Below, one piece after another: positions 20,188-53,500 of a stretch of DNA of 64,000 nucleotides. The stretch is from Colius striatus (lineage: Eukaryota; Chordata; Aves; Coliiformes; Coliidae): contig NC_084790.1 of NCBI RefSeq assembly GCF_028858725.1, positions 3,726,001 to 3,790,000 on the forward strand. The letters are read 5' to 3'. The position numbers and the translations under genes were made by a program. The notes below the pieces were generated by a model that worked only from the letters and a program-made list of their open reading frames with translations, was not told the DNA's origin and ran no database searches. The stretch's first letter is position 1. Each line of letters starts with the position of its first letter.

Positions 20188-20392
20188 CTGGGGATCCATC
20201 AGGGTGCCAGGGCAGGCAGAGGATCCAGCTGGGCACAAGGGCAGGCAGGGGATCCAGCTGGGCACAAGGGCAGGCAGGGGATCCAGCTGGGCACAAGGGC
20301 AGGCAGGGGATCCATCAAGGTGCTGAGGCCAGCAGAGGATCCATCAGAGTGCCAGGGCAGGCAGGGGATCCATCAGGGTGCCAGGGCTGGGG
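20188..20392. repeat. Minisatellite, 29-bp unit, about 7 copies
   Basis: Direct repeats of about 29 bp based on 'ggatccagctgggcacaagg' plus 'gcaggcagg'. The three central copies are nearly identical and the flanking ones carry 'ggatccatcagggtgccagg' variants. The open frames across it are repeat artefacts. It lies downstream of the IGFBP4 stop codon. Confidence 0.93.
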
Positions 20393-28200: not shown

Positions 28201-29692
28201 CAGAGGGGCTCATCCACAAAGGACCCTCCTCACCACAGGGACACCGGTGGAGCTGCCACGGAGCAGCCATGAGAGGAAGGAATAGATGTGGGGCCCAGCC
28301 CTCAGGGCAGGCAAACACTGCTCCAACTCCTTCTGCTTACTGGGGAGCTCCAGGTGACCTTGCTCAGGGACACAGGGCTGGGACAGCTTGTGGGCTGTCC
28401 CGTGGCAGGATGCTGCTGCTCCCCAGCTCCAGGGGATGTGGTGCTGCAGGATGGGGAAGGGGTGGCATGGCATCCAGACCCACCGACAGGCCAGCCTCAT
28501 GAACCACGTCTCCACACTCAGCCCCCCAGGAGTGGCTCCATTCCCACTGCCAAAGCCAGGGTGGGATCTGCACAGCTCTAGGGTTGGGTTCCCACCTCTG
28601 GCTCTGCTGCTGCCTCCCACACTCTGTCAGGAGAGTGGTGGGGGACTACAATCAACACCTGCCAGAAAACCCTCAGACAAACACAAGCAGGCAGAGCCTA
28701 CAGGCAGCGGCTTCTCAAGCCTGGCCCTGGCTGCTGCCTGAACTCCGCTGCCCTGTCTGGCCGTGGGAAGGGCATAGCCCTCTGCAGAGCCAAAGCACAG
28801 AGCCCTGTCTGACCTGTCTGCGAGGGAAGCAGGTCATTTTCCTGTTTCCTTTCAGCAGTAGCAGCATCCCAGGGAAGGGGCAGCACAGGGGTCACCATGC
28901 AACAGGAGTTTCCCTGGAATCAGGACCATGTCCCCAGGGGCCACGGGTGCCTGTGGGCCCCCAGGATGACCTGTTCACCGTGGGTGACAAGTCCCTTGCA
29001 AAGCACCCCCCTGCAGCACACACAGTACCGCTGGCCGTGGCGCTGCTGTGCCCACAGTGGATAAGGATGGCACAAACATGACCCGTAAGCACCCAGCTGC
29101 GGGTGCCCCCTCCCTGGGATCCATGCACGCCCATCCCCGGGCTGTCCCAACCTATGCTGCAACACAATCGCTGCTGAGCCCCTCGCCCCGCTCCCAGCCC
29201 CTTGTCCCCAGCTCTTGCCAAGCGATCGGGGAGCAGCTTGACACAAACACGGACAAGGCTGCCAACCCAGCGAAGGGCCACTCCTGGCACTAGTCCCCAG
29301 CCCCTCCACCGCCCGGGGCCGGCCTTACCTGGGGGGTGGAGGCTCTCCTGGATGGCCTCGACGTCGGCCAGGTCAGTGCAGACCCCCTGGCCGTGCATGA
29401 GGGTGTGCAGGGGCCGCGGCACGCCGCGGGGCGGGTAGCACCGCAGCCCGGCACCGCAGCGCGGGGTGTAGACTCCGCAGGCGGTACCGCGGCCGAGGGC
29501 GCAGGTCGCGCAGCAGCCGCAGCCCGGTTCCCGCACCAGCTCCGTGCAGCCCTGCGGTGCTTTGCAGCGAGCCAGCCGTTCCTCCGAGCACGGCGGGCAC
29601 TGGATCGCCTCCTCGCCGTCGCCCGGTGCCGCCGCCGCCGTCAGCAGCAGCAGCAGCGGCAGCGGCAGAGCGCGCCCGGGGCCCCGGCGCAT
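22269..29692 (-). CDS. IGFBP4: Insulin-like growth factor-binding protein 4, 4 exons
   Basis: Secreted carrier that binds IGF-I/II and limits receptor access; it is cleaved by PAPP-A in mammals. Minus-strand coding exons: 29692-29329, 23102-22948, 22820-22686, 22397-22269; total 260 aa (human 258). The start ATG at 29692 is followed by a Leu/Ala-rich signal peptide (about residues 1-24). The N-terminal IGFBP domain (about 30-108) carries the diagnostic GCGCC at 57-61 and the family cysteine pattern. The variable linker (about 110-173) keeps an N-glycosylation sequon in HPNNSF (near residue 130), as in mammals. The C-terminal thyroglobulin type-1 domain (about 174-255) contains CWCV at 230-233 and the IGFBP4 end CHQLADS. 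No RGD is present near the C terminus, unlike IGFBP1/2. The acceptor of exon 3 uses a 14-C polypyrimidine tract (G-run at 22835-22848 on the plus strand). The gene is convergent with TNS4. Confidence 0.98.
23378..23475 (-). mobile_element. CR1 LINE 3' end, short (IGFBP4 intron 1)
   Basis: About 100 bp of reverse-oriented CR1 terminus: 'acagaatcccagaacggtgg', 'ggttggaagggacctttgga' and 'gccaaagcaggttcacaggc'. Confidence 0.8.
25080..25440 (-). mobile_element. CR1 LINE 3' fragment (IGFBP4 intron 1)
   Basis: Reverse-oriented CR1: 'aatcatagaatcccacaatg', 'aggaacgtgtccaggtgggt', 'ccctgggcagcctgtgccag', 'ttgtgttccagcttgtgtca' and the 'cttgtcctgtcactggccac' block. Same subfamily as the 11048 copy. 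Confidence 0.9.
26735..26822 (+). mobile_element. CR1 LINE 3' end, short (IGFBP4 intron 1)
   Basis: Short sense-oriented CR1 terminus: 'ctgctttagcagggggttga', 'actggatgatctctaaaagt', 'cttccaacccccaccattat'. Confidence 0.8.
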
Positions 29693-30480
29693 CGCGGCTC
29701 CGCGCCCGCGCTCCGTTCCGCGGCTGGCGGCGGGCGCGGAGCGGCGGCGGCTTTATCAGGCCCCTGGCCACACCTCCCGCCGCCGGCACCGGGGCCACCG
29801 GCGGGGCCGCCCCCGCCGACACCGGAGAGACACCGGGGAGAGACGCTTCCCGACCACGGGCGCGGCGGCACCGGCGGCTTCAAGCACCGGGAAGGGCGGC
29901 TTCACAGCGCCGGGGCCACCGGCGGGGCAGCTGCGGCGCTGGGCGTCGTGGAGACACAGCCCGGAGACCCCCGACCACAACCCACACCCGCCCCCCCCCC
30001 ATCCCAAACCTCCGCTCTGCAGACCACCCGCCACCTCCTCGCAGCCCCCAGCCAGCAGCCCCGACATCTCGCCCGCAGCCTCCCGCCCGGTCCTGAGAGC
30101 AACTGGGATGAACTGGGGATGGAAGGGTACACACACCAATACGGGGCTGCATCGCGGGGGCTGTGGCCAAGACCCTCAAGGAGGGCCAGACCAGGGTGGA
30201 CTCCTGACGCGGGGGCTCGCGGTGGGAGCAAAAGTGCTGCCGGCAGCTCAGTCCAGGCTGCCAGGGAGGCCTCGGCTCCCCTTCCTGACCCTGCACCCGC
30301 CGACTCTCCGCGCCCCTCGACACGGCACCCGCCGGTCCCCCCTGCCCCCAGGTCCCGCACCCGTCGGGTCCACGCACCCGCCGGTTCCCCGCGCCCCCCG
30401 GCGCCGCCGTCGCCGGCCCCCCGTGCCCCCAACCCTCCCCCCCCCCCCGCCCCGCAGAGGCCCCTGATGAGATGGAAGCT
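29320..30480. promoter_or_regulatory. CpG island over IGFBP4 exon 1 and promoter
   Basis: CpG-dense, very GC-rich stretch covering IGFBP4 exon 1 and about 0.8 kb upstream on the minus strand. A TATA-like GATAAAG is readable on the minus strand at 29757-29751, about 60 bp before the ATG, so it could set a short 5' UTR. Beyond about 29980 the island becomes C-rich and repetitive ('cacccgccggt' motifs at 30290-30450). Island limits are by eye. Confidence 0.6.
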
Positions 30481-33297: not shown

Positions 33298-36200
33298 ATG
33301 AGGTCCGGCAGCACCCAGCACCTCCTCCATGCACTCTGCATCCTCTCGGTGCTGGCTGGGTGCCTGCCCGCTGCCACGGCCCAGTGGTTTAACCTGGGCT
33401 TGGAAGACACCACTCCAGATCCGGACACCAGCCCCACAGCACCCACCCTGGATGGGGAGGAAGGTAGGAATGAGGGGTTGGGGCTTCCCCAGCACCCCCA
33501 GCTCCTGTACCTCAGCAAGGAGGGAGCACCTCTGGCGTAAGGCTGGAGGGTGAGGTTGGGGGTAATGGGGTCTGGGGCTGCTGGTGGCACTGCTCCAGCC
33601 CCAGTGAGTGCCAAGAGCTGGGAATTCTGTGCCTTTCATGTCCTTCTCCAGCCCTGCCACCTCCCCCTCATCACCCCTTTGCTCCTGCAGACAGATACGC
33701 CGTCAGCATGAAGCCCACACAGAAGGTGCTGCTGAGCAAACCCCCGCTGGCAATGGCCCCCCGACGCCGGGACCCCCTCAACAAGGGGGCAGCAAAGGGC
33801 CGGGGCCGTGCCCTCCTGCGCACACAGAGCCAGGTGTCTTTCCCTGGGCAGCATCCTCCCATCTCCAATTCCCCCAACCCTCCTGAAACTCCCTAGCTGC
33901 CACTGGGCCTCTCACCTCATCCTTCCCCTTATCTGAGTGCTGCTCCACCCCTGAGCCACAGCTCAGCCCCCTCCCTGCTTGGAAAGGAACCACAGCAGCT
34001 CCTGGCATCGCCCCACGTGACAAAGCCCCACAGCAGCACTGGGACTCCGCTCCTACCCTAAGCTGTGGGCAGCCACAGCTGCAGGAGGGTCCCACATCCC
34101 CCCAAAGCCCCACACCAAGCTCTCCCATCTGTCCCAGCAGCACCGACCCACTGTCACCCCAGAGAGCTTCGAGGGGAGTGCGGAGGAAGAGGAGCTCCTG
34201 CAAATCAAGGTGGTGGAGGGGTCTTGGTCCCCAGGGAAAGCTCAAAGGGCAGCATGGGATGGACACCTGGGTGAGGGGCTCTGTGGGCTGGCAGGGTGGG
34301 AAGGGGATGGTGCTGTAGGAGATAAGGACAGTGCTCTGGGGTCTTGCTCTCAGCCCCTCCTCTTCTCTGCACAGATGACAGCGAAGGGGCTGCCCCCATG
34401 GGTGCCCCCAGCCTCAGAGACAGATCCTGCCCTCCAGGTGAGAGATGGGTGCAGGTTATCTGTGCCAGACCCTGCAGCTGGAGCTCCCATCCCACAGCAA
34501 ACTGCTCTCTCCTTCTCTAGGGGCACAACAGCTCTGGCTGCATCTGTCCTGTGCGCCCTGGCCCTCCCGGCCCTCCAGGACCCAAGGTGTAGTGGTCATC
34601 CCTGGGGAGAGGTTTGGGCAGGGTGTGGAGACCAACAAGGACTCATTGGGAGAAATCCCAACCTGCTTTTGGCCACAAAAAACCTTTTCTGCTCAGGATT
34701 TGGACTCTTGCTTCAGTGTCTGGGTTGGGGGGCAGCTCAGGTGTGCCCTGGTAGGGAGGCAGCAGGTCCCCATAGGTGGGCACTGGTGAAGCCAGGCTCT
34801 GTCTTTCCCTGACAGGGAGAGAAAGGTGACCGAGGGTTCCCAGGAGAGAGAGGCCAGCCCGGACTCTCTGGGGACAGAGGGAAGTCTGGCAGCCCAGGGC
34901 AGCCAGGTCACCAAGGTCCCCGGGGCCCTCCAGGTCCTCCAGGACCACCAGGACCCCCGGGTCCACCAGGTACCTGGGGAGCCAGGAGCCCACCAGCACA
35001 CGCTGCCCTCCCTGACAGATCAGAGAATGAGGTGAGCTCTGGGGTGAGGGGCTTGGGTGGGCGATGACTGTGCCAGCTGCAGTGTCTGTATCCAGATGGA
35101 CCGGCTGGGATGGGGAGGGCTGGGGCACGTGGCTGTGGGAGTGGGCAGCCCAAGAGGAGGGGACCAGGGGACAAAATATGGCCATTCACCATTCTGCTCT
35201 TTCTTTCTTCCCTCCCTTCAACTCGGCACGCAGCTTGGAGCTTCCAGCCCTGCAGGAAACCCAGGACCCCCAGGCCCCCCTGGACTGCCCGGGCTGCCCG
35301 GACCCCCAGGCTATCCAGGCCACGAAGGGATCCCTGGACGGGATGGGCAGCCGGGACCCCCTGGCCCACCGGGGGCTTTGGGACCACCTGGTTTCCCTGG
35401 GGCTGAAGGGCCTCCAGGCTCAGCTGGGCCAGATGGACCCCCAGGGGCACCAGGGCTCCCAGGACCACCAGGTCCCCCTGGTCCCACAGGACCTGCATCG
35501 CCCCCTTGCAAACCAGGGCTGCAAGGGGAGCCAGGATTCCCTGGATTAAAGGTAAGGTGAGGTCTCAGGCCAGTGCAGAGCCAGCGGGGTAGGGATGGAG
35601 CAGCTGGCTTAGCAGCCCCTCGCTCTGCCCCGGTGGGGAACGGCCCCTGGCTCTGGAGGGCTCCAGGGCTCCTGCTGCTGCAGGCTCTGGGGGCACACGG
35701 GTGCTGAGCCCCCACACCATGTGCCGGCAGGGTGAGAAGGGTGAACATGGGCTGCCTGGCATGCCAGGGAGCCCTGGCCGAGCCGGAGACACAGGCTCCC
35801 CGGGCATGCCGGGTCCCATGGGGCCACCTGGGCCGCCGGGGGACTACCGGGTGAGTCGAGGTGCTGGGGCTGTGGGTGCTGGGGGTGGGGGGCAATCCCC
35901 ACGCTCACCTCAGCACGTCCTCTCCTTCCAGTGCGACCCACGCCACGCAGGGCACCACAGAGCTGCCGGGCCGCCGGGCCCCAAGGTGAGCTGGGGGCTG
36001 TGGGTGGTGGGTGTTGGCAGCGAGGGCACAGGAATGGCATCAGCTATGGCTGCTCCACGGTGCCGGTGCCAAGATGAAACAGCTCCATGGGGGTTGTGAG
36101 CCCATGGAGCAATGCACAGCGCTGGGCTGGGGGGCTGGGAGTGCCCAGGGACCCCCAGAGCTGGAGCACCAACAGGACCTCTCTGCTTTTCTTACAGGGA

Positions 36201-39200
36201 GAAAAGGGCGACCCCGGAGAGCGGGTTTGTAGCCACGGGCATCAGCAGGGGTGGAGATGGCTGCAGGGAACCCATGCCCCCACTCTGAGTGAAAACCCTT
36301 GAGCCCCACGTGTTGCCTCTGCTCCCACACCACCCTCTGTGTCAGGGCAGTGCCAGCCTTCACCTCACCCCGGTGTCATCACCAGAGTCCCCAAATGGGC
36401 TGGGGCAAGAGGGGGTTGGCAAGTCACACTGTTCCCTGCAGCACATGCGAGTGCAGCCATGCACACACGCAGTGCATGCACCCATCCCCATCACCCAGCA
36501 CAGGCTCTAATTGTGCCTCTCTCTGTGATTCACCCAGGGGTGCTGTTATGGGGAACACAGGTGCAAACCAGGACACTTCCCCTTCCCCAGCACTGGCGGC
36601 CAGTCCGGCTCCTGGATTAATGGGTACCAAATGGTGAGTCCTCAGGGCTCCTGGACCCCTACCATGGTGAGGAGTGTCCAGGGACCCCAGTTTGGCTATG
36701 GGAACACTGCTCCCAGAGCCCTTGAGGCTCTGCATACCCCACAGCATGGCTCACCCCACCAGCAGCCCCACAAGGCTCACGGCCCCAGGTGGGATGGAAG
36801 GATGAATGGATGGAGAATAATGAGAGGGAGGATGGAGATCAGCCTCAAACTTCTCTTTCTCTGCAGGGCAGCAAAGAAGAGGCAGAGATTTACGGAGCCA
36901 TCATCCCCCATGTGAGAGACACTGCCTGGCTCCCAGCCACTGCCTGGGGAGGTTCAGCCCAGGGAGGGGAACAGAGTGGGAAGGATGAGGGACAGCTATG
37001 GAGTATCTTATAGCTGCCCCTACAAAAGGCAGCACCAAAATAACCCGGTTCAATCTCCACACTGCTCTACTGCAGGGTCTTCGAGGTCCCCCTGGGAACC
37101 CCGGTCCCCCCGGACCACCTGGCCCCCCTGGAGCACCAGGTCTCCTCTACCTCAACGTAAGGCTCAGAACATGTCTGTGCAGAGCATGCTCACACGTGTG
37201 CGTGCACGGCATGAGGGGCTCCCTGCAAACCTGCCTGTCTTTGCTTCCAGAGAGTGTACCCTATCCGTGGCCAGCCACCCTGCAAGCAGCCGGTAAGCCA
37301 GGGCCTCACTGTTCCTGAGAGAGATCCTATCCTGCCCCTGTGCACTGGGAAGGGTGTCCCTGTGCCTGGCAGCAGTAACGGGCCCCGCTTGCCTTCACAG
37401 GCAGCCGCTGACGCAGGCTGGGCAGCAGGTAAAGGCAGTGCTCAGCTGTTTCAAGGGCTCCAACCTCATAGGAAGCACCTTTGGTGAAGCCCTGTGCCTG
37501 CCTTCTGGGAGCCAGGGCCGTGCTACCTGAATGGATCCCTGGCCCCGGGGCAGCTGGTGACCCCCATCCCCTGTGTGCTCTCCAGATGCTGACATCCCTC
37601 GGACAGAACCGCTGGGCTCTCGCAGCGACCCGCAGGTGCGTCCTGGCTGCGGCGGCGGGCGAGCCCCCCAGGCTGCCCCACGCACCACGGCTGGGCCATG
37701 AACCTCTGCCTCCTCCCCAGCGCCAGACGTGGGTCTTCAGGTCCAAGGAGCAGATGCTGAGGGCGAGCAGCACGGTGCCTGAGGGGAGCCTGGTGTACGT
37801 GCAGGAGGGGAGCAGTGCCTTCCTCCGGACCCCCACCGGCTGGAGCCGCCTCCTGGTACCGTGCACCGACCACGTCCCTCTGGGTCCTTGGTGGGGAGGG
37901 TGAGGGGGTCAAAGCTCCAGCCCTGGCAGCCAACACTGGGCTGAGTTTAGTGCTGAGGCAGCAGAACCTGGGGAAGGAGCCAGTTCCCCCCTAATCCATC
38001 CTTCTGCTTGTTGCATTGAGCAGCTGGAGGATTCGGAACCGCTCTTCGCTGGTGATGACCCCTCCGCCTCCACCCCGCAGTACCAGGTGAGGTACAGGCG
38101 TGGGCAGCCACCAGCTCACACCCAAGCAAGGCACAGGACCCTCCTTTGCATGCTGAGGCAGGGCCCCACAAGGACCATCCTCTCCTTTCCAATCCAGGAA
38201 GCAAAGCGGGTGCAGCAGATGAGAAGCCCTGACACGAGGCCACCGGCACTGGCCCCAACAGAGTCCCTGGTGAGCCCTGACACTTGGTCTGGCTGCACCA
38301 GGAGGGGTGTGTCATGGAGACAGGCTATTGGCTGGGCAGCACCAGCCCGGCACGTGCAGAGCGTGGGGTTGTGATGAGATGGGAATGGTACAGCACTCGT
38401 GGCACCTCATGGCACAGAAGAGAGTGTCTCTGCTCTGACCTGAGCTGCTCCATTCCAGGTCCAGAAGGAGAAGGGACAAGGGCTGCCACAAGTCCTGTCA
38501 ACCACCGTCGCCCCACGGATCCCTTCAGTAAGCAATGCCCAGCCCCAGAGTGGGAGGAGAGGTGCCCAGGAGACCCCTCCAAGCTCAGGCAGTAGAGATC
38601 TTGATGCCTGGCTGTGTCTGAGCCTTCCCACCACTCTGCCACCCCTCCTCAGCTCCGCCTGGCCGCCCTGAACGTGCCCCTCACTGGTGACATGAACGGG
38701 ATCCGGGGTGCCGACCTGCAGTGCTACCGGCAGTCCCAGGAGGCTCAGCTCTACGGCACTTTCCGGGCTTTCCTCTCAGCCCCTTCCCAGGACCTAGTCT
38801 CCATCATCAAGAGGACAGACAGGACCCTCCCCATTGTCAACCTGAAGGCAGGTAGCCCTGTGCCCCATGGGGACTGACAGTCACAAAGCCCTGCAGACCC
38901 CCCCAGTGAGCCTCGGCAGAGGGAACCTCGTCCAGTCCTGCACTGGGACTACCCCACCCTGACTGCTCAGCGCTTGGGTTTTGGGGAGCCAAGAGGAACC
39001 CAGAGCAAGTCATTGCCCACACATGGTCAGGATAAGGGCATTACCCCAGCCCGCTGGCCCCTAGCCCTCAGCTCAGTGCCACTGCTTGCACCTGTAGGGT
39101 CAGCTGCTGGCCAAGTCCTGGAGCTCCCTCCTTCAGGGCCAGTCCAGTGCCACCCCACGAGGCCCTATCTTCTCCTTCAACGGGCGCAACATCCTGACAG

Positions 39201-39577
39201 ATCCCCTTTGGTGAGTGCAGCCACGGGGCAGGTACCAGCAGAGCATCCCCAAACAAATGGGGCTGGGGGGCTGCAGTGGGTCTCTGGTACTTTCACGGGT
39301 GCAGGGGCTGATGCAAAGAGCTGGAGGGTGTCCCCCACCCCCTCATACCTCTATCCCCATGTGCAGGCCCCAACGGCTCGCCTGGCATGGATCCACACCA
39401 CGGGGTAGCCAAGCCCGTAGACGGGATTGCCGAGGCTGGAGCAGCTCTGGCCCCGGGGAGGGCCTGGCTGCTCCCCTGGGTGAGGGAAGGCTGCTGGCTG
39501 GGCAACGGCACAACTGCTCCGAGGCGCTGGTGGTGCTCTGTGTGGAGGTGGCTTTTCCCTACCGGCACATGTGGTGA
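33298..39577 (+). CDS. Multiplexin-like collagen with endostatin-like C-terminal domain, 23 exons
   Basis: Probable secreted basement-membrane collagen of the XV/XVIII (multiplexin) group. Exons: 33298-33463, 33691-33833, 34141-34209, 34375-34437, 34521-34586, 34816-35031, 35234-35551, 35731-35850, 35932-35985, 36198-36224, 36538-36633, 36867-36911, 37076-37156, 37251-37292, 37401-37428, 37586-37635, 37721-37855, 38024-38086, 38198-38269, 38459-38527, 38653-38847, 39098-39210, 39367-39577; 813 aa, all phases close. Signal peptide 1-28. An acidic/basic N-terminal region runs to about 150 with no thrombospondin-N domain visible. Interrupted Gly-X-Y repeats span about 158-485, with Cys-containing breaks ([14 protein letters not shown]). 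NC1 starts at 489 (RVYPI). Trimerisation segment is 529-573 ([16 protein letters not shown]). The endostatin-like domain starts near 642 ([29 protein letters not shown]) with Cys665, 765, 794, 802. Mature exons are mostly in-phase, typical of collagens. Exon 21 needs a GC donor. The orthology to COL15A1 or COL18A1 is unresolved. Confidence 0.9.
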
Positions 39578-39860
39578 ACGTGGCACCATGGCAGCAGTGA
39601 CCCCCCCAGCCACATGCCCCTGGTTCTTCAGGGCTGGAGAAACAGCCCCAGGAGACCAGTGGGCAGTGCAAGGGGAGAAATGCAGTGCTGGAGCTGTGCA
39701 AGAGCACTGAGAGGAATGCTGAACACACGGCTGGCTTGTGCCATCCTCAGTCGGGGCTATGCCATCCCCACAGATCTCCAGGCCCTGGGGTGATGCCAGG
39801 CTGTGCATTGAATGTCTGTACACTGTCCCAGAAATAAAGACACACAAAAAACGTGGTGTT
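39578..39860 (+). other. 3' UTR and poly(A) signal of the collagen gene
   Basis: Sequence after the collagen stop codon, with AATAAA at 39833-39838 followed by a GT-rich stretch ('gtggtgttttggttg') at about +15 to +35, as expected downstream of a cleavage site. Implies a short 3' UTR of about 280 nt. Confidence 0.75.
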
Positions 39861-40439: not shown

Positions 40440-41262
40440 TATCCCAGTATGTCCCTGATGCCTGCCCAGTCCACCCCAGTGTGTCTCAGTGTACTCCCTG
40501 AGCCTGCCCAGTCTATCCCAGTGTGCCTCAGTGTACCCCTGAGCCTGCCCAGTCTATCCCAGTGTGCCTCAGTGTACCCCCTGAGCCTGCCCAGTCTATC
40601 CCAGTGTGCCTCAGTGTACCCTCGGAGCCTGCCCAGTCTATCCCAGTGTGTCTCAGTGTACTCCCTGAGCCTGCCCAGTCTATCCCAGTGTGTCTCAGTG
40701 TACCCCTGAGCCTGCCCAGTCTATCCCAGTGTGCCTCAGTGTACCCCTGAGCCTGCCCAGTCTATCCCAGTGTGCCTCAGTGTACCCCCTGAGCCTGCCC
40801 AGTCCATCCCAGTGTGCTTCAGTGTACCCCAGAGCCTGCCCAGTCCATCCCAGTGTGTCTCAGTGTACCCCCTGAGCCTGTCCAGTCTATCCCAGTGTGT
40901 CTCAGTGTACCCCCAGAGCCTGCCCAGTCTATCCCAGTGTGCCTCAGTGTACCCCTGAGCCTGCCCAGTCTACCCCAGTGTGCCTCAGTGTACCCCTGAG
41001 CCTGCCCAGTCTACCCCAGTGTGCCTCAGTGTACCCCAGAGCCTGCCCAGTCTACCCCAGTGTGCCTCAGTGTACCCCTGAGCCTGCCCAGTCTATCCCA
41101 GTGTGCCTCAGTGTACCCCTGAGCCTGCCCAGTCTATCCCAGTGTCTCAGTGTACCCCAGAGCCTGCCCAGTCTATCCCAGTGTGCCTCAGTGTACCCCT
41201 GAGCCTGCCCAGTCTATCCCAGTGTACCCCTGAGCCTGTCCAGTCTATTCCAGTGCGTCCCA
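40440..41262. repeat. Minisatellite, 41-bp unit, about 20 copies
   Basis: Head-to-tail repeats of about 41 bp (some 42) with the core 'cccagtgtgcctcagtgtac' and 'ctgagcctgcccagtctat'. Copies differ by a few substitutions (cctc/tctc, ctat/ccat/ctac) and by one C in the CCCC run. The array ends about 50 bp before the first TOP2A promoter CCAAT box. Because 41 and 42 differ modulo 3, the array gives overlapping repetitive open frames in several phases, which I treat as artefacts. Confidence 0.97.
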
Positions 41263-41558: not shown

Positions 41559-44500
41559 ATGGAGCTCACGGAGTCCCCGTCGCCTCTCCGAGTGCGTCCG
41601 GTACCGCAGTCCCACTTCCCCGCACGGTTTCGGCTTTCCCCCGCTCCCCTCGGCTTCTCCCCGGACCCCTCTCGCGGTCTCTTCCCTCACCGCCATCCCT
41701 GCCCTGGCTCCTCAGATGTCCCGTCCTTCAGATCCCCTCCCTTTCCCCTGGTACCGTGTCGGGATACCCCACAGCACGGACCCAGTCCAACCCCCTACCC
41801 CGACTCGATCCCCTCCACCCCTGATTCCTCTCCCGGACCCTCAGCCCCTCACTGCCGCTGTGTTTCCCCGAGCAGCCCGCGGACGAGAATCCTCGAGTGC
41901 ACAAAGGCGATGGTGCGAAGAAGGTGCTCTCGGTGGAGCACATCTACCAGAAGAAGACGCAGCTGGAGCACATCTTGCTCCGGCCAGACACTTATATCGG
42001 CTCCGTGGAGATGGTCACTCAGGTGAGGAGCGGGGGCGGGGAACGGGAGAGCGGCAGGGCTCAGCCGCCTGAACTCCTCGGTGCAGGCCAGAACTCCTTA
42101 ATGTCTGTTTATAAAGCACAAAACATTTGCTTTACAAAATGATGGCGTGGAAGTTGTGCCGGCTACTTATGCATTTCTTGCCTTCTTTTCAGCAAATGTG
42201 GGTTTTTGATGAGGACGTGGGCCTTAACTGCAGAGATGTAACCTATGTGCCTGGCTTATACAAAATCTTTGATGAGATTCTAGGTAAGGTGACTTGTTGA
42301 GTCAGTGATTGATGAGTTCTTCGTGGGTGGTGAATGTCTGAAAAACTAGAAGTAGATGCAAGAACTTATCAAGTGTACTTTGACCAAATCATACCTTTTG
42401 CATAATTTGATGGTGCACTCTGTTAAAAAACAATTCAATTCAGCTTCTCCATTCTGTGTTACTCCTCTTTGTAACTTTGATAACAAAATATTTGCATACC
42501 GCGATGATTTAGTAACTTTTTATATTCACCCCACTGCAAACACTTTCCAATGAATAGTTTGGTCTTGAGAATGTAACAACAGTAATCTTTCCCTTCCAGT
42601 CAATGCAGCAGACAACAAGCAGAGGGATAAGAACATGTCGTGCATTAAAGTTGGAATTGATGTGTAAGTTGTGGTTCGTTTCATTTTTGATCCTTAGCTC
42701 TTGCTAAGCTGGTGCAGTATTGGAGATCTCTGCAACACAGACAGTCCAAGTTCACCAGTATAATTTGCCAGTGCTGAAAACCTTTTTCTTTGCTGAATCC
42801 CTTAGTCTCTCAGACTTTTGAAGTGACTCCTCTTTTTTGTTGTCGTTTGTCTGGGGTTTTTTTCCCATTGTGGCCATTCTTTTCTTCCTATCAACCTTTT
42901 TATTCCATCACTGATTGCAGACAGAGGGTTTTTATGTGTGGAGGTCCATTTCATAGAGGGGATCTGCACATCTGAGGAGTTTGCTGTTGACTTGCCCTCC
43001 CTCTGCTGGCTGCTTCTGCTTTTGCTGAGCAGAGATCTGCCCCTGGTGAAATGGTGGCCTTTACCTAGAGCTTTCATATACAAGACTTGTTTCATAACTC
43101 AGTCGTTTGCAGCCTTCAAAACACACTTGGATTTGTCTGTATTTTTTTCCTCCTAGAGAGAACAACACAATCAGCGTGTGGAACAATGGGAAAGGTATTC
43201 CAGTTGTTGAGCACAAAGTGGAGAAGATGTATGTGCCTGCTCTTATCTTTGGGCAGCTACTAACATCCAGCAACTATGATGACAATGAAAAGAAAGTCAC
43301 AGGTAGGAAAGTCTCAAATACGTGCTAATAATTCTTAGCAGTTTTAAGTGTGCAAACTGAAAAGGGGAAGGGAAAAAGGGGTCTGTGGTGCAACATGGAA
43401 CCAGCTTTCTGAATCCATCAGGGAGAAGTCTCCATGTTCTTATTTTAGACCAATAGTGGTACAAACATGGAGAACAGGAGATATTCTCTTTGAACTTGAA
43501 TCCTAATTAAATATGGGTTTGTAGTCACATACTAAGCTGGTAGGATATTGTTGCTTCTCAATGGTTGTACTTTCTGCTGAAGTGGCTGAACCTCTTTTGG
43601 TCTGGAATTGTTTTAGGTGGTTTTGAACAAAGGTAATAACACAAATCTGCTTCCTTTTAATTCCAGGTGGGCGAAACGGTTACGGAGCCAAACTGTGTAA
43701 TATATTTAGCAAAAAATTTACTGTGGAAACTGCATGTCGTGAATACAAGAAGTTATTTAAGCAGGTATGGACACTTCAGTAAGGTTAGGCCTGAGATTTT
43801 CAAATAAGACTCTTTTTAAGTTTTTGTTCCAAAAATCATGGTTACTCAAGTGTATTAGACTTTGCATCTCACAAAGCCTTCTTTTCTCAGACTTGGACAG
43901 ACAACATGGGAAAGGCTGGTGAGATGAAACTGAAATATTATGATGGCGAAGACTACACCTGTGTCACCTTCCAGCCTGATCTGTCAAAATTCAAAATGAC
44001 AATCCTCGATAAAGACATTGTAGCCTTAATGTGTCGCAGAGCGTATGATGTTGCTGGATCCACAAAGGATGTCAAAGTTTTCCTGAATGGACAGAGGCTG
44101 CCTGTAAGTGAGCATTTAAAAGCAACAGTCATATCTGCAATTCTCATTCCATTTAAATGGTGAGGTTTCATTGAAGCAATCTCTGTCCTCACACATCTTA
44201 AAGGGAGAATTTTCGTGAGTGATTTCTCTACTCACTTTTCAGGAGGATATGCATTAAATATTTATAGAAGCTGTTCTGAACAAGTTGTTTGCTCTCCTCT
44301 GCATGCAGGTGAAAGGATTCCGTAGTTATGTGGACCTTTATCTGAAGGATAAAGTAGATGAAACTGGTAATGCACTTAAAATTATCCATGAGGAAGTAAA
44401 TTCTCGGTGGGAAGTGTGTTTGACTTTAAGTGAAAAAGGCTTCCAGCAAGTTAGCTTTGTCAACAGCATTGCCACCACAAAGGTAACTATTTAGTCACCT

Positions 44501-47500
44501 TAATGCCATATTCTCTGTTAATATTCTTCCCTATTTTCAAATGTATGTGTGTGAAACAGATGCTTAATGTGACAAAGATTATACTTAAAGTTGTAAGTAG
44601 ACAGACATACTTTTTTTTTCCTAATGGACTCACCACTAGGTCTTTGGTCCCGTTTTCCTGTAGGGTGGCAGGCACGTTGATTACGTAGCTGATCAGCTGG
44701 TGACTAAATTAATTGATGTTGTGAAAAAGAAGAACAAAAATGGAGTTGGAGTGAAGCCTTTCCAGGTACCATGGCAGAATTTCCCCAGTGGGGAAACACA
44801 ATTCTGGCATTATTGCAAATTGTAGCTAGAGCTGAATGCATTGGTGTGTTAATAATACACATTTCTACTGTAACATGGAAATTACATACATATAAGGTAG
44901 CAGTATATATAAGATAGCTGATTTTATTAGCATATTTTCCATTTTAAGCCAACTAACAATCTTCTCATTGTTTGACTAATGCATTTTGTAATCAGAACAC
45001 CCTAAATCAGTGTAGATGTGCTAAAACTCATCTGTTATATAGTACCTATTTATGCATCCCAAATCACATAATATCTCGTGGATGCTCATTAACTATCCTA
45101 AATTCTTTGAAGACATCTAGGAAAATCCCAAACCATACAATGATAAGTGACTTTTGGCTCATGGGGCGATTCTGACAGACAAATGCTCTTGCTGAGATGA
45201 GCTTCATGTAACTTGGGATGCTTGTTGTGTTTAACTGTAGGTGAAGAACCATATGTGGATTTTTGTGAATGCCTTGATTGAAAACCCAACTTTTGACTCT
45301 CAGACCAAAGAGAACATGACTCTGCAAGCAAAGAGCTTTGGCTCAACCTGTAAACTGAGTGAAAAATTTATTAAGGGTGTAAGTATTGATATACACAGAT
45401 AATCCAAGAAAAGCTGCATCATGTTTCAACTGGCAAATAAGATACTTTGGAAGTGAGGCCGTGACCTAAAGAAAATGTGGCTATAAATTCTGCCATTGTT
45501 AAGTCTTTTCCCACAATAGTTTTGTGTTTGTTTTTGTATTGCAGGCAGTTGGTTGCGGCATCGTTGAAAGTATCCTAAACTGGGTAAAATTCAAAGCTCA
45601 GAACCAACTGAATAAGAAATGTTCAGCTGTGAAGCACACCAAGATTAAGGGTATTCCTAAACTGGATGATGCCAATGACGCTGGTAAGTGCTTTGCATCC
45701 TTTGCAAAGAGTCCATTCAAAAACAGTTAAGGCTCTTGCATTTGACAGATGAAATTATTGTCTCCCAAGGAAAAATGAGGAAACCTGCAGCTATAGTATA
45801 TCTCCATTTTACAGTCCCATTTACTTCCAGGCTGTCCTCAGTGATGGCCAATGACAGGACAAGGGGCAATGGGTACAAGCTGGAACATAACAAGTTCCAG
45901 AGAAACACAATGAAAAGTTTCCTTGCAGTTCAGGTGAGGGAGCACTGGAAGGTGCTGCCCAGATGGGTTGTGGAGTCTCCTTCTCTGGAGACATTCCAAA
46001 CCCACCTAGATGGGTTCCTGTGTGACCTACTCTAGGTGGTCTGGTCCTGCTCTGGCAAGGGGTTGAACTGGATGATCTTTCCCTTCCAACCCCTGAGATT
46101 CTGCGATTTGCAATCTATGTTAGAAGATATTTATTCTCGTTCCGTTTGTATGCAGGCTTTGATTTCACTTCTTAATTAGAAAATTGACTTGATTTTGTTT
46201 TCTTTTTAGGAAGCAAGAATTCTTTAGGTTGTACACTTATCCTGACTGAGGGAGACTCAGCCAAAACACTGGCTGTTTCTGGCCTGGGAGTGGTTGGTAG
46301 AGACAAATATGGAGTATTTCCACTCCGTGGGAAGATCCTCAACGTCAGGGAAGCTTCTCACAAGCAGGTTGGTTGGGAAATTGTTATAATCTGTGTGTAA
46401 GAAGGTGCAGTGCTGTGTGTCATGCAGTCTTATAACTGAGTCAGTCCAACTAAACAATGTAACTCACAGGACCAGGATCTTAAACACGAGTCTAGTCTTA
46501 TCTTCATGGTTAAGTGGGAATGTTGATTTAGGTGCTATTTAGTGTTTTGCCTGAAGAGATCATGTTTGTGTTGTGGGCTAGAAAATGTTTGGGGTGATCT
46601 AGAATAACTTCAGCAAAAAAAAAAATCCACTGAGGAGAAATCTCAGTCAACATTTTAGACTTTTTTTGAGCAAGATTTTAAGCCTGAAAGGCAAGTTTTT
46701 ATTCCCTGTGGTCTTTTCTAGATCATGGAAAACGCTGAAATCAACAACATCATCAAGATTGTGGGTTTACAGTATAAGAAGAACTATGAAGATGAGGAAT
46801 CTCTAAAGAGTCTTCGCTATGGAAAGATTATGATCATGACAGATCAGGTTAGGCTCACTGAAGTGGAAAACTGAGGGAAAAATAACCAGCACTTGAGTAC
46901 AGAGGAAAGAAGAAAATGCCACCTTTTTCCCACTGCCTCTGTTTGTACCTCTGTATTTGTTTCTTTTTATCATTCTGTATTTTGGTGAGTCATAACATCT
47001 TTTCAGCCACAAATCAAAATAGATAGAGAGAGGAGTGTTACCACCACATAGCTAAATAACTGTTTTTCCAGTCTGCTGATTCTAGGTCTTTGGTACCCTT
47101 TCTCACCAAGAATGTGCCTTTTCTGTTTCTCTTGAGTTTCTAGCAGTTAAACAATGCATGGTCACCTTCTTAGAAGTGGAAGTTAATAGAGTCAGTTAGC
47201 TGAAATTATAGAATCATTTGCTATTAAGCTAACAATTGTCAATTTCATTATGTCCTGGATAAAATATGTCATTTTTTCCCCCCCTTCTTTTGAAATCAGG
47301 ATCAAGATGGATCACACATCAAAGGTTTGCTGATTAACTTCATCCATCACAACTGGCCATCTCTTCTAAGACACAACTTTTTGGAGGAATTTATTACTCC
47401 CATCATCAAGGTGAGAGTTGGGTAGATGGTAAGGTGATTGTGTAAGGACCTGTTAATCCAAATCTTCCTCTCATACCACAGTTAAAATATTTTTCATTGT

Positions 47501-50500
47501 AGGTCTCTAAAAACAAAGAAGAGGTTGCATTCTACAGTATTCCTGAATTTGAAGAATGGAAAAACAGTACACAGAACTACAACACGTGGAAAATCAAGTA
47601 CTATAAAGGTAAATCTGGTGAAATTAAATGAGCCAAGTAAAGAGTGTTCATGATTAAGTTCAGTTCATTTAGCCCTGCCTTTGCAGAAAGATTTTGGCTA
47701 GGGTGTCCTCCAAGCCTCTTTCCCTCCTCAGGCATTCTGATAACAAGTACATGTGCCATAAAATGTAAAAGTAAGGAAACAATAACCACTTAACTGGAAT
47801 AAATCTCAATAAAATCTCTCAAAGTGGAACTACAGTATTGTAGGTAACCATTCTTTCAGCCCTTATTAGGCAATAATGCTCAGCTTTAGGTGCTGTTTTC
47901 CATAGTACAGTCCTTGTCTGCCGTTAGCGCTGTAAGCTAAGTACTTACTCCAGAATTGCTTAACATCGGTAAGAAAGTTGCCAACTGCAGAACAATGGCT
48001 GGATGATGAGGAATCATTTCCAGTTGGCAGTTAATCATTTCAGATATCTACAGGAGTTACAGGCAAAATCCAAAAGAACAACATGCAACTGCTCACTTAT
48101 CCCTGATTCTTCTGGGTTTTATGCCTTACATCTCATTTTAAAGTAACACAGGTTTTCAGTAAGTTACCTTCATGTTGCATACTGTATTGCAGAACCTAGG
48201 CATAGCAAAATATTTCTTTGAACTGCCACTCAGTTTAGGCAAGAAATGACTAGGGTTGACTAGTACTGTCTCTACAGGTTTGGGTACCAGCACATCAAAG
48301 GAGGCTAAAGAATACTTTGCAGATATGGCTAAACATCGAATTGGCTTCAAATATTCTGGGCCTGCAGATGATGCTGCGATCACCCTGGTAACTAAACCCT
48401 TGATTTAATTGCTGATTTTCTACCTTTGGTATTCTGCTGGTTAGAGTGCTGTGTATTTTCTCTTAAAAATGCTCTTAGAAGCCTTTGGACTTGAGACAAT
48501 CTCTTTGTTACCAAGGATACGGCTTTAGTCTAAGCAGCGGAAGCAGATCTGTCTACAGACCTCAGGTCAAGAGTACCCTTCTAATGATAGTTTCTGGGAT
48601 ATAGCTCAGAACAAACTAATCACTACAAAGCAATTGACATTTTCAAACACAATAGTAAATATTCCTTTAATATTTTTCTGCAGCTTGTGCTGCAGCTTTC
48701 TGCAAGTCACACTGTCCCTTTCTCCCTCACATTTTCTTCTTGCAAGGTGTCTCACCAGTGGATTGAAACAGTCGTTACTTTACTTTCCGTAGCCATTGAC
48801 TCTCAAGTATTCTGAGCTGTTAGGCAATGCCGAAAACCCAAGGTTTTCCCCAAAATATTAACTTCCCCCTCCCAAGCCGCTTTAGTTTTCCATTATTGTG
48901 TTCAAAATCCATACATTTAAACCTAACTGCTAAAGGCTGATACACTCTTAGTACACTCAACTACAGAAACCTTTTCTTGGGCTATCAAGGCAGCCCATTT
49001 AGCGTGTTATTCTTCTGGGTGAACTCTTCCTATGTGGTTTTATTTTTGTCTCCAGTGGTTCCAGACCACAGAAGGTCCTAGAATTGATGTTGCTTTTTGT
49101 TCTGTAACATACAGGCCTTTAGCAAGAAGAAGGTAGAAGAGCGAAAGGAGTGGCTGACTAATTTCATGCAAGATCGAAGACAACGGAAGATGCGTGGTCA
49201 GCCAGAGGTAAAAGGTTTATGTATATGGAGGAAACTGGTTTCCTCTTTTTCCCTGGGGCTGCTCGTAGCACCAGCCTGGCACACAAGAGCCACACAGAGC
49301 TCACAGTCAACAAGTTGGTTACTCTGTTACAGGACAGTTAAAATGTTTCAAGATTTTGTGGAACAGTTTCCTCAATGTAGCCTCCTTCTCAATTGTCCCA
49401 ACAGCTGATTTCGTTTTTAACTCTTGTCTACTAGCTTTATAAATACAGAAATTAACAACTCAAACAGCACTGTATAAAAGACTTTGTCTCAAGAAATGGG
49501 CCCGCATCACAGGAAGCCACGTTTCATTTCTTTGTGGTCCTACATGGAGCTTCCATTTTAGAGAAACTAGCCAAGTATGAGCTAATAAACAGATGGTTAT
49601 AATTAAACCAGTTTTGTTTTTCTTAGGAATACCTATATGGGAAAAATACTAATTACCTGACATACAACGACTTCATCAACAAGGAGTTAGTGTTGTTCTC
49701 AAACTCAGATAACGAAAGATCAATCCCCTCACTCGTTGATGGTAAGTTATTTCAAGACAGCAATTCCACATTAGTGAATTCTCCAGACTCAATAAATGGG
49801 TGTTTAGGTGGCATATCATCAGAACTGGGGAACCTACTGGGTTTTCAGGGCTTGTGTTCTGAAGTCTGCTTTCTGCTGACCAAGTTTTTAATATTTGGAT
49901 TAGATATTTCATCCCTTTTGTAGTACCTTTGTTGTTGTAAGTTCTTTACTCTCCTGGTGTACGATCTTTCGGTGTGTAAGTAGTTCTTAGTCCCTAGAGT
50001 GCAGAAGGGAAGTGGAACACATTGTGTGTTCTAATCACAAGGTCTTTTCTTATACAGGTCTGAAGCCAGGTCAAAGAAAAGTTCTTTTCACATGCTTCAA
50101 ACGAAATGATAAGCGGGAGGTGAAGGTTGCTCAGCTGGCTGGTTCTGTAGCTGAGATGTCCTCATACCATCACGGTGAGGTAAGAACCTGGACTGGTTGT
50201 GCAAAATACTTTTTTAAATTAAAGCAAAAAAAGCCCTTCTGTTGGCTTAATATGCCTTCTAAAGAGGATTAGATGTTTTGAGAATGAAAGCCAAAGCAAA
50301 ATGACTGTATATCTGCTATTAATAGCTCAAAATTAATTTAATCTGGAGGTAATCAGTCTGCCTGTCCTCCCCAGACTTTATGGGAGTAGGTTTAGTTCAC
50401 AAAGTAGAACAAGACAAACCCACTTTATTTGTGATAGGCTTAGGCAGATGTCAGTAGCCTTTCTACCTCCATAAGGGGAACTTGAGCACTAGAACAAGCT

Positions 50501-53500
50501 TTTCTTGGCAGACTGGTAGAATTTCCCTTCCGAAGTTTCAAGAACTAGGTAAATGGCAATATATGGCGGGTCACCAGAATCTATCTAGTCACCCAGGCTG
50601 GATGGTCCTGGGGTGGTCCTCGTTCAAAAGGTGAGAATTTCCTCCAGCATTTTATTAGCTGAGTTTATCCTCTCTATCAGTTCTGTTCTTTTAACTTTGT
50701 CTGTTTGATGAAGACTTCTGCATTTTTAGCTTTAAACCTTTCTTTATTGCAGGCATCACTGATGATGACTATTGTTAACTTAGCCCAGAACTTTGTAGGC
50801 AGTAACAACCTCAGCTTACTACAGCCTATTGGGCAGTTTGGCACAAGGCTGCATGGAGGAAAAGACTCAGCCAGCCCTCGATACATCTTTACAATGCTCA
50901 GGTCAGCATTAAAGATTTCTTACTGTCTTTAAACATTCTTAGCATGTTACAGGACTTGATTTGACAGCATTTGAAATGAAAAAAATGTGGTTTTTTCCCT
51001 TTCAAACTTTGGACTGCTTGCATCCTTAAAGTAGCAACAGTTGTAGTGAGATTTGGATCCTAGATTCAGATACATAAACATAGTTGTCATCTCAGAGAAC
51101 AGAAAAACACAGCAGACAATATGGAGATGAGAGTGAAAACAAGGGGAGAAATTTGGGTAGGATATTAAAAAAATGACTTGAGAGAAAGACTTTCAGGTAC
51201 CTGAAAGTGCAGTGCTGTGGCCCAGTGGACAATCAGGTTGGCCAAATGCATTAACCTAGCATCTCTAAAGCAAGGTTTACTGAAGATCCTCGGACATTAA
51301 ATGTTTAATTTACATATTTAAATATGAACTTAAGGTCTCATAGCCAGTGGAACATGTAGAGACTGGTGAGATGGCTGAAGAAATCCATCTCTGATTTGAG
51401 TGTTGCTCCAGGAACCTGATTTTCTAGTGCCAATACCCAAGCTGTATGGCCAGGAATAAACCTGATTGAGGTGTTTCTTTTCTGGGGGATTCTTTTTGCG
51501 TGGTGGTTACTGCTCTGGAACAACAATTTGGGCTTAAATCCCCTTTTTACCATTCTAGCCCCCTGGCACGGCTGCTGTTCCCACCTATGGATGACAATGT
51601 CCTCAAGTTTCTGTACGATGACAACCAGCGTGTGGAGCCAGAATGGTATATTCCCATCATTCCCATGGTGCTGATAAATGGAGCAGAGGGGATTGGTACT
51701 GGCTGGTCCTGCAAGATCCCCAACTTTGATATCAGGGAAGTTGTGAACAACATCCGACGTCTAATGGATGGACAAGAGCCACTGCCAATGGTAAATAACA
51801 TATTTGTAAATCAGTGTTGTGTTTCTTAGTTTGTTCAGCACTTACTGGTGCATTTTGTGCAAGTGCTGAAAAATAGAAGCATCAAGACAAAACTGAACCC
51901 TGTGTTCTTTCTTTTCTGCTCAGCTGCCTAGTTACAAGAATTTCAAAGGCACGGTAGATGAGCTGGGACCTAATCAGTATGTGATAAGTGGTGAAGTGTC
52001 TATCCTTGATTCTACAACCATTGAGATCACTGAGCTGCCTGTCAAAACGTGGACACAGGTAATACACAGTGAATTTGCCCATGTAAAGTAAAAAGTGATT
52101 AGTGAGTTTTTCAAGATTTCATCTGCATGGAAAACGTGGGTCTGACTTTGACTCTTTCCTCAGACTTACAAAGAGCAAGTGCTGGAGCCAATGTTAAATG
52201 GGACTGAGAAGGCACCCCCACTAATCACAGACTATAAAGAATATCACACAGACACAACAGTGAAGTTTATAGTGAAGATGGCTGAGGGAAAACTAGCTGA
52301 AATTGAATCAGCGGGGCTGCATAAAGTCTTCAAACTCCAAACAAATTTAACATGCAACTCAATGGTACGTAATACATTTTGCTTGGTTCTTGGTTTGACT
52401 CAAAGACTGTGTGCACATCTGCAGCTGCTGCCTGTGACAGAAATGCTCTCTTTGCATAACCTATTCACTTTGCTTTTTCTGCTCTTACTGGTTTTAAATC
52501 AGCTTTCTAAATGTGTCTTCAAAAAGGTCAAGGCATGGGCCCAGGCTAGGATGGTTTTGCCTGAAGGAGTCAAAAAATTATCTGAAATCACAGGGTTTAC
52601 AGAGACATGCATGAAGCTCCATGCAAGATGTTTAACCTACAGAGGAAACTGAAGAAACCTTAACCCTTACTATGTGTTTTCAAGAACTCTGAAATCCTAA
52701 CATAGTTATAGTCACTGGCGCTGTGCTTGTAAACAGAAGCAATTTATAAAATGCCATTAAGGTTTTATAACTTGTTGATTCGATTCAGTTGGACTCTAAC
52801 ACCTGTCTTACAGGTAATTTTAAGTGGGCTTGGAAATCAGTTTTATCATCCTAATCCCTGTGTTCTTTGATCTAGGTTCTTTTTGACCACGTGGGATTCC
52901 TGAAGAAGTTCGACACCCCCCAGGATATCCTTAAAGAGTTCTTTGAGCTCAGACTCCAATACTACAATCTGAGAAAGGAATGGCTTATTGGAATGCTGTC
53001 AGCTGAGTCTGCAAAGCTGAGCAACCAGGCTCGCTTCATCCTGGAGAAAATAGATGGCAAAATTGTGATTGGTATGTATTAGTCTGGGTTTAGAAAACTG
53101 GGAGAGGAACTAGGCGCTCCCTTGAGTTCTGTCAGCACCCTCTCAGCCCCAGGCTGGCTCATAACAAACTACACCAGAGCTTATCTTTGTTCCAGTCATG
53201 TGCAAGAGGAAAATACTTCACAGAATATCCTTAGTCTACAGAGCATTATAGAATTGTTTCAGTTGGAAAAGCCCTTTAAGCTCCTGGAGTCCCAGCCCTG
53301 CCCTCACGCTGCCCAGCCCACCCACAGCCCTCAGCACCTCAGCTCCATGGCTTTGGGATCCCTCCAGGGCTGGGGACTCCCCCACGTCCCTGGGCAGCCT
53401 GGCACAGGGGCTGACAACCCTCTCAGAGAAAATAGTTCTTCCTAATATCCAGTCTAAATTATGCACAGATTAATGAAAACAGGATACCCATACAACTTTC

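Follow-up and report, generated by a model that had tools for sequence, protein, structure and literature searches.

A very probable third multiplexin paralogue, in addition to COL15A1 and COL18A1, in the bird Colius striatus

Multiplexins are collagens whose chains trimerise via the trimerisation domain of the NC1 region, after which the helix folds toward the N-terminus and proteolytic cleavage of the hinge releases endostatin. By family name and general layout, Drosophila Mp and C. elegans CLE-1 are also multiplexins. One study states that invertebrates have one multiplexin and speaks of zebrafish paralogues of collagens XV and XVIII and of "the two vertebrate multiplexins" (PMC7852327). 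Work on endostatin and the collagens that carry it, as matrix proteins of vessels, eye, and muscle, takes as its premise that vertebrates have two multiplexins. A stretch of 64 kb (C40:3726001-3790000, hereafter the window) of a bird genome was analyzed here and very probably carries a working third multiplexin gene, which would be paralogous to both COL15A1 and COL18A1 and would have split from both before the bird–mammal divergence. Among the matches listed in the open literature, no paper describing a third vertebrate multiplexin was found; the gene may already be annotated in sequence databases as "like" COL15A1 or COL18A1.

Gene structure and protein domains

Splicing by script joined 23 exons on the forward strand into an open frame of 814 amino acids (Table 1). 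The 23 in-frame exons and the whole-gene size of 6.3 kb given in the original prediction were thereby retained, and its length of 813 amino acids was corrected. The introns are 81-313 bases long, and the gene is therefore compact. GT-AG borders were found in 21 of the 22 introns. Intron 21 was assigned a GC donor (exon end AAG, intron start GCAGGT; window 38848-38853), since the GT donor four bases on was rejected for shifting the frame and destroying the endostatin domain. At the matching splice position, COL15A1 and COL18A1 of this bird have a GT donor.

Table 1. Features of the collagen gene and its neighbors in the window
Feature	Position	Strand	Basis
IGFBP-domain ORF (IGFBP4-like), transcription directed away from the collagen gene	28895..29752	-	Domain scan
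Whole coding gene, third multiplexin-type collagen (23 exons, 814 aa)	33298..39577	+	Splicing, Pfam, Z/W selection tests
Exon 1: start codon, signal-like hydrophobic stretch, start of short N-terminal region	33298..33463	+	Splicing; hydropathy, ~residues 5-28
Exons 2-4: N-terminal non-collagenous region without TSPN domain	33691..34437	+	Splicing; TSPN search
Exons 5-13: five interrupted Gly-X-Y runs (22, 27, 17, 6, 8 triplets)	34521..37156	+	Splicing; triplet count
Exons 14-16: short linker from last collagenous run to trimerisation exon	37251..37635	+	Splicing
Exon 17: trimerisation domain of multiplexins (PF20010), both ends in phase 0 like COL15A1/COL18A1	37721..37855	+	Splicing, Pfam, locus comparison
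Exons 18-20: hinge from trimerisation to endostatin domain	38024..38527	+	Splicing
Exon 21: endostatin part 1; GIRG motif in common with COL18A1; GC donor follows	38653..38847	+	Splicing, alignment
Exon 22: endostatin middle part	39098..39210	+	Splicing, alignment
Exon 23: endostatin end and stop codon	39367..39577	+	Splicing, alignment
AATAAA polyadenylation signal (one)	39833..39838	+	Sequence
Type II topoisomerase (TOP2A-like), likely start codon to last domain stretch; gene continues beyond	41559..52649	+	Domain scan; start read by eye

The domain content agreed with the prediction of interrupted Gly-X-Y repeats, a multiplexin-like trimerisation segment, and an endostatin-like domain with four cysteines. 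The protein contains 80 Gly-X-Y triplets, arranged as five runs of three or more, the longest of which (27 triplets, uninterrupted) compares with a maximum of 7 triplets in 2000 shuffles of the protein, and it scored 118 bits with Pfam Collagen (cut-off 27.2). Collagen_trimer was matched at residues 534-577 (37.2 bits, cut-off 23.8) and Endostatin (PF06482) at residues 643-808 (176.4 bits, cut-off 29.4), where the four cysteines line up with their counterparts in human and mouse endostatins and the endostatin core residues are retained. Ten further cysteines are present, two of them within the signal-like stretch and several where the helix is interrupted. Compared with solved structures, the NC1 region matched mouse XVIII endostatin (E 1.1e-46), human XVIII (E 2.9e-46), and mouse XV (E 6.4e-43), and the trimerisation domain matched that of human XV (E 0.0032) and, weakly, that of human XVIII (E 0.061).

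The bird COL18A1 TSPN domain, which as a query retrieves bird COL15A1 at E 5e-51, found no TSPN in the 64-kb window (best E 0.38). Judged by its sequence, the third multiplexin is a TSPN-less paralogue; TSPN is present in COL15A1 and COL18A1 of this bird but lies outside the definition of a multiplexin. The zinc ligands of type XVIII endostatin are H1, H3, H11, and D76, and in the alignment these zinc-site residues do not occur in the third multiplexin, with exon 20 devoid of histidine, R at position 11, and G at position 76. No convincing match to bird COL15A1 or COL18A1 was obtained with the N-terminal region, the interruptions, or the hinge. Ser-Gly pairs are present, which by themselves do not prove glycosaminoglycan chains.

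The protein thus described holds the parts that the multiplexin mechanism requires. Its chain would be secreted, three chains would join through the C-terminal trimerisation domain, and the interrupted triple helix would zip from there toward the N-terminus, and cysteines at the interruptions could cross-link the chains; protease cuts in the hinge may then release the endostatin-like domain. Because TSPN and the zinc site are absent and the helix is short, the gene probably encodes a minimal multiplexin of basement membranes or pericellular matrix, with the C-terminal NC1 trimer as the main delivered part.

Family members and the relationship to COL15A1

The genome (one genome, 1.21 Gb, 191 contigs) was searched in six frames. 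The Endostatin search yielded eight exon matches in three loci, on C11, C6, and C40 (all 11 candidates scored), and the Collagen_trimer search yielded three matches in the same three loci (8/8 scored). The C11 locus is COL18A1, whose first endostatin exon is 91% identical to mouse XVIII; the C6 locus is COL15A1, with 80% identity to mouse XV and a TGF-beta receptor GS-domain match 21 kb away. All three loci are intact. Neither search picked up the decayed W copy (see below), and the genome may therefore hold more decayed copies beyond the three loci.

The comparison of introns covered the trimerisation exon and the three endostatin exons. Their phases are alike in the three genes (0/0 for the trimerisation exon; 0/0, 0/2, and 2/stop for the endostatin exons), and in each gene the first endostatin exon opens at L(H/R)L.ALN, the second follows NL(K/R), and the third begins inside the W codon that precedes PQ(K/R). 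The common positions and phases indicate a paralogue at the DNA level; a retrocopy is ruled out by the 22 introns, of which those of the trimerisation and endostatin regions lie at the family's positions. The third multiplexin-type paralogue put forward in the original prediction was borne out by the separate COL15A1 and COL18A1 in the genome, by these introns, by the evidence that it is not a recent copy of either gene, and by purifying selection.

The endostatin domain of the third gene is 45% identical to bird XVIII, 49% to human XVIII, 46% to bird XV, and 44% to mouse XV, and orthologues from bird and mammal share 80% (XVIII) and 75% (XV) of their residues. In the trimerisation domain, the third gene shares 27-37% with the others, and the bird–mammal orthologues share 54% and 61%. 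Scans of prokaryote genome contigs and viral contigs for outgroup endostatins matched 53 and 13 pattern stretches, respectively, with no relatives, and the trees, with rows from bird, human, and mouse only, are therefore unrooted. The third gene has a long branch (2.39 changes per column, mixture model), so the trees alone cannot settle its placement; this length also implies that constraint is weak or that functions have shifted.

An alternative that we consider unlikely is that the third gene is a younger, fast-evolving duplicate of COL15A1 that arose after the bird–mammal split. LG+C20 places it beside XV rows: in the best tree of the second tree set it stands with mammal XV at 58/46, bird XV being equally likely (p-AU 0.51), and in the endostatin-alone tree it stands with mouse XV at 70/52 (bird XV, p-AU 0.40); the residues NLKG, TDPxWPQ, and PI(F/Y)SF are also common to the third gene and XV. 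Under LG, however, the XV rows group together at 87/88, and attaching the third gene to a single XV row lowers the score by 4.7 and 5.5 (p-AU 0.13 and 0.065), while its endostatin identity to XV (44-46%) is no higher than that to XVIII (45-49%). The GIRG motif before AD(F/L)QC is kept in the third gene as in XVIII, but all four residues are missing in bird and mouse XV, and the XV-specific residues of bird and mouse XV are absent from the third gene. If the GIRG deletion was a single event, the third gene left the XV line before the bird–mammal ancestor; the deletion thus argues against nesting in COL15A1.

The chromosomal block, its W copy, and selection

Domains were found in three of the 10 window ORFs scanned, namely IGFBP in the ORF listed in Table 1 and topoisomerase II in two stretches at 51470-52649 (+). 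The IGFBP4 and TOP2A flanks of the original prediction were thus recovered as domains, with IGFBP4 and TOP2A as presumed gene names. A minisatellite (window 40453-41225; 41-base unit, 18.7 copies, 94% matches) sits in the interval from the collagen gene to the TOP2A-like start and appears shorter on the W copy, and another (window 20190-20387; 29-base unit, 6.8 copies) lies ~9 kb from the IGFBP exon.

Three DM-domain genes stand in a row on C40 at 52.36-52.46 Mb, and a DMRT cluster is expected on the avian Z. A CHD1-type domain was found on C40, C39, and C9. On C39, topoisomerase II and a trio of nuclear-receptor genes are arranged and oriented as they are around the window. From this gene content, we read C40 as Z and C39 as W, with the collagen block as a segment added to both; C40, with the DMRT cluster and CHD1, looks like a neo-Z, and C39 looks like a neo-W with a decayed, colinear copy of the block. 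The TOP2A-type block is presumably autosomal in chicken (chromosome 27). The neo-sex chromosome of the crested ibis involves chromosome 22 instead (PMC10891136), and no paper linking TOP2A to a bird neo-sex chromosome came up in the literature search.

A W copy of the collagen gene, colinear with the Z copy, is located within C39:40506027-40514010. Exons 21 and 22 are wholly gone, as are parts of exons 6 and 7; the remainder contains frame-breaking indels, several damaged splice sites, and five stops in 627 comparable codons in the Z frame. The TOP2A-like gene has a W copy at C39:40.526-40.550 Mb, which matches window 41.7-56.1 kb, introns included, with 78-89% DNA identity over six stretches and many stops in the translated matches. 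Six single-stretch nuclear-receptor zinc-finger matches, two of them with a stop, were also seen on C39 at 1.2, 8.2, 8.9, 14.0, 15.3, and 16.8 Mb; they are perhaps retrocopies or W-amplified fragments.

In the core introns, Z and W differ at 412 of 2672 sites (0.154), and at codon positions 1, 2, and 3 they differ at 95/640, 63/641, and 119/639 sites (0.148, 0.098, and 0.186), the second positions differing from the introns at p = 2e-4. The Z–W dN/dS was 0.492 (bootstrap 0.385-0.635, 627 codons). In the neutral null, comprising 1000 simulations from the Z sequence over the same codons with CpG-aware rates from introns and flanks, the median dN/dS was 0.765 and the minimum 0.569. The observed pN (0.119) was under all 1000 neutral runs (minimum 0.130), and pS (0.222) was as expected, with 152 of the 1000 runs as high. 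By region, dN/dS was 0.38 in exons 1-4, 0.62 in exons 5-13, and 0.41 in exons 14-23, all point values without confidence limits. With the W copy dead, the deficit in amino-acid change must reflect constraint that acted either on the Z copy or, while the W copy was still alive, on the two together. The collagen protein has thus been under purifying selection, and the signal may in part be older than the death of the W copy.

It is accordingly very improbable that the third gene is a decaying pseudogene or a collection of exons that are open merely by chance. Its long branch, the GC donor at intron 21, and the decayed W copy would fit decay; against it, all 23 exons are open in frame with regular borders in all but one intron, the endostatin cysteines and core residues are retained, and at the level of past selection a pseudogene is rejected by the Z/W divergence, with nonsynonymous change below every neutral simulation.

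Origin and comparison with known multiplexins

Least credible of all is a duplication from within COL18A1: GIRG is held in common, the closest single endostatin match (49%) is mammalian XVIII, and the endostatin-alone tree did not reject a grouping with both the human and the mouse XVIII rows (p-AU 0.124), but the XVIII rows group without the third gene at 100/100 under the mixture model in both tree sets and at 99/99 under LG, and constraining it with one XVIII row gave p-AU 0.039 in the endostatin-alone tree and, in the second tree set, 0.037 and 0.052 (mixture) or 0.003 and 0.006 (LG). The trees, which had been proposed as the means of refuting a third paralogue through nesting in a known gene, thus disfavor an origin inside COL18A1, while the placement of the third gene relative to COL15A1 is model-dependent.

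With regard to the early history of the block, C40 carries topoisomerase II, nuclear receptors at 3.795, 3.885, and 3.897 Mb, and an LRRC3-type gene at 3.979 Mb, and C7 carries topoisomerase II at 18.007 Mb, nuclear receptors at 18.083, 18.621, and 18.693 Mb, and an LRRC3B-like gene at 17.625 Mb. We take these blocks to be TOP2A-RARA-THRA and TOP2B-RARB-THRB, and from their gene content they look like a genome-duplication pair. The whole-genome Endostatin and Collagen_trimer searches gave no multiplexin match on C7. The LRRC3-type protein search recovered the query itself on C7 and the C40:3.979 Mb gene at 55%, and the other 84 of the 86 matches had E 2e-13 or worse; none of these lies near COL18A1 (C11) or on C6. 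Linkage of the three multiplexins in one ancestral block is therefore without support from the one protein tested.

The third multiplexin is not known from mammals. We lean somewhat toward the broader interpretation that it represents an undescribed third class of vertebrate endostatin-collagen, zinc-independent and TSPN-less, which, in view of the partner block on C7, would have arisen in the early vertebrate genome duplications, been kept in birds and probably other sauropsids and lost in mammals, and by now be reduced to a Z-linked gene in this lineage. Such a multiplexin, naturally lacking TSPN and the zinc site and yet under selection, would test which multiplexin parts matter, and it would need to be counted in knock-out and evolutionary studies of birds. 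The Z/W pair offers a natural experiment on its loss.

The third gene shares with collagen XVIII (COL18A1) the interrupted triple helix, the trimerisation domain, the hinge, the endostatin domain, the NC1 intron positions and phases, and GIRG. It differs from collagen XVIII in its endostatin sequence (45-49% identical), the absence of TSPN, a shorter helix, and another locus, as well as at the zinc site, where the exon before the endostatin core has no histidines, R replaces H11, and G replaces D76. With collagen XV (COL15A1), it has in common the architecture, the NC1 introns, the NLKG and TDPxWPQ residues, and the G at the D76 place, which is found in both mouse and bird XV. In contrast to collagen XV, to which its endostatin is 44-46% identical, it retains GIRG and lacks TSPN, and its coding span is 6.3 kb versus ~64 kb from the TSPN exon to the stop codon in bird COL15A1.
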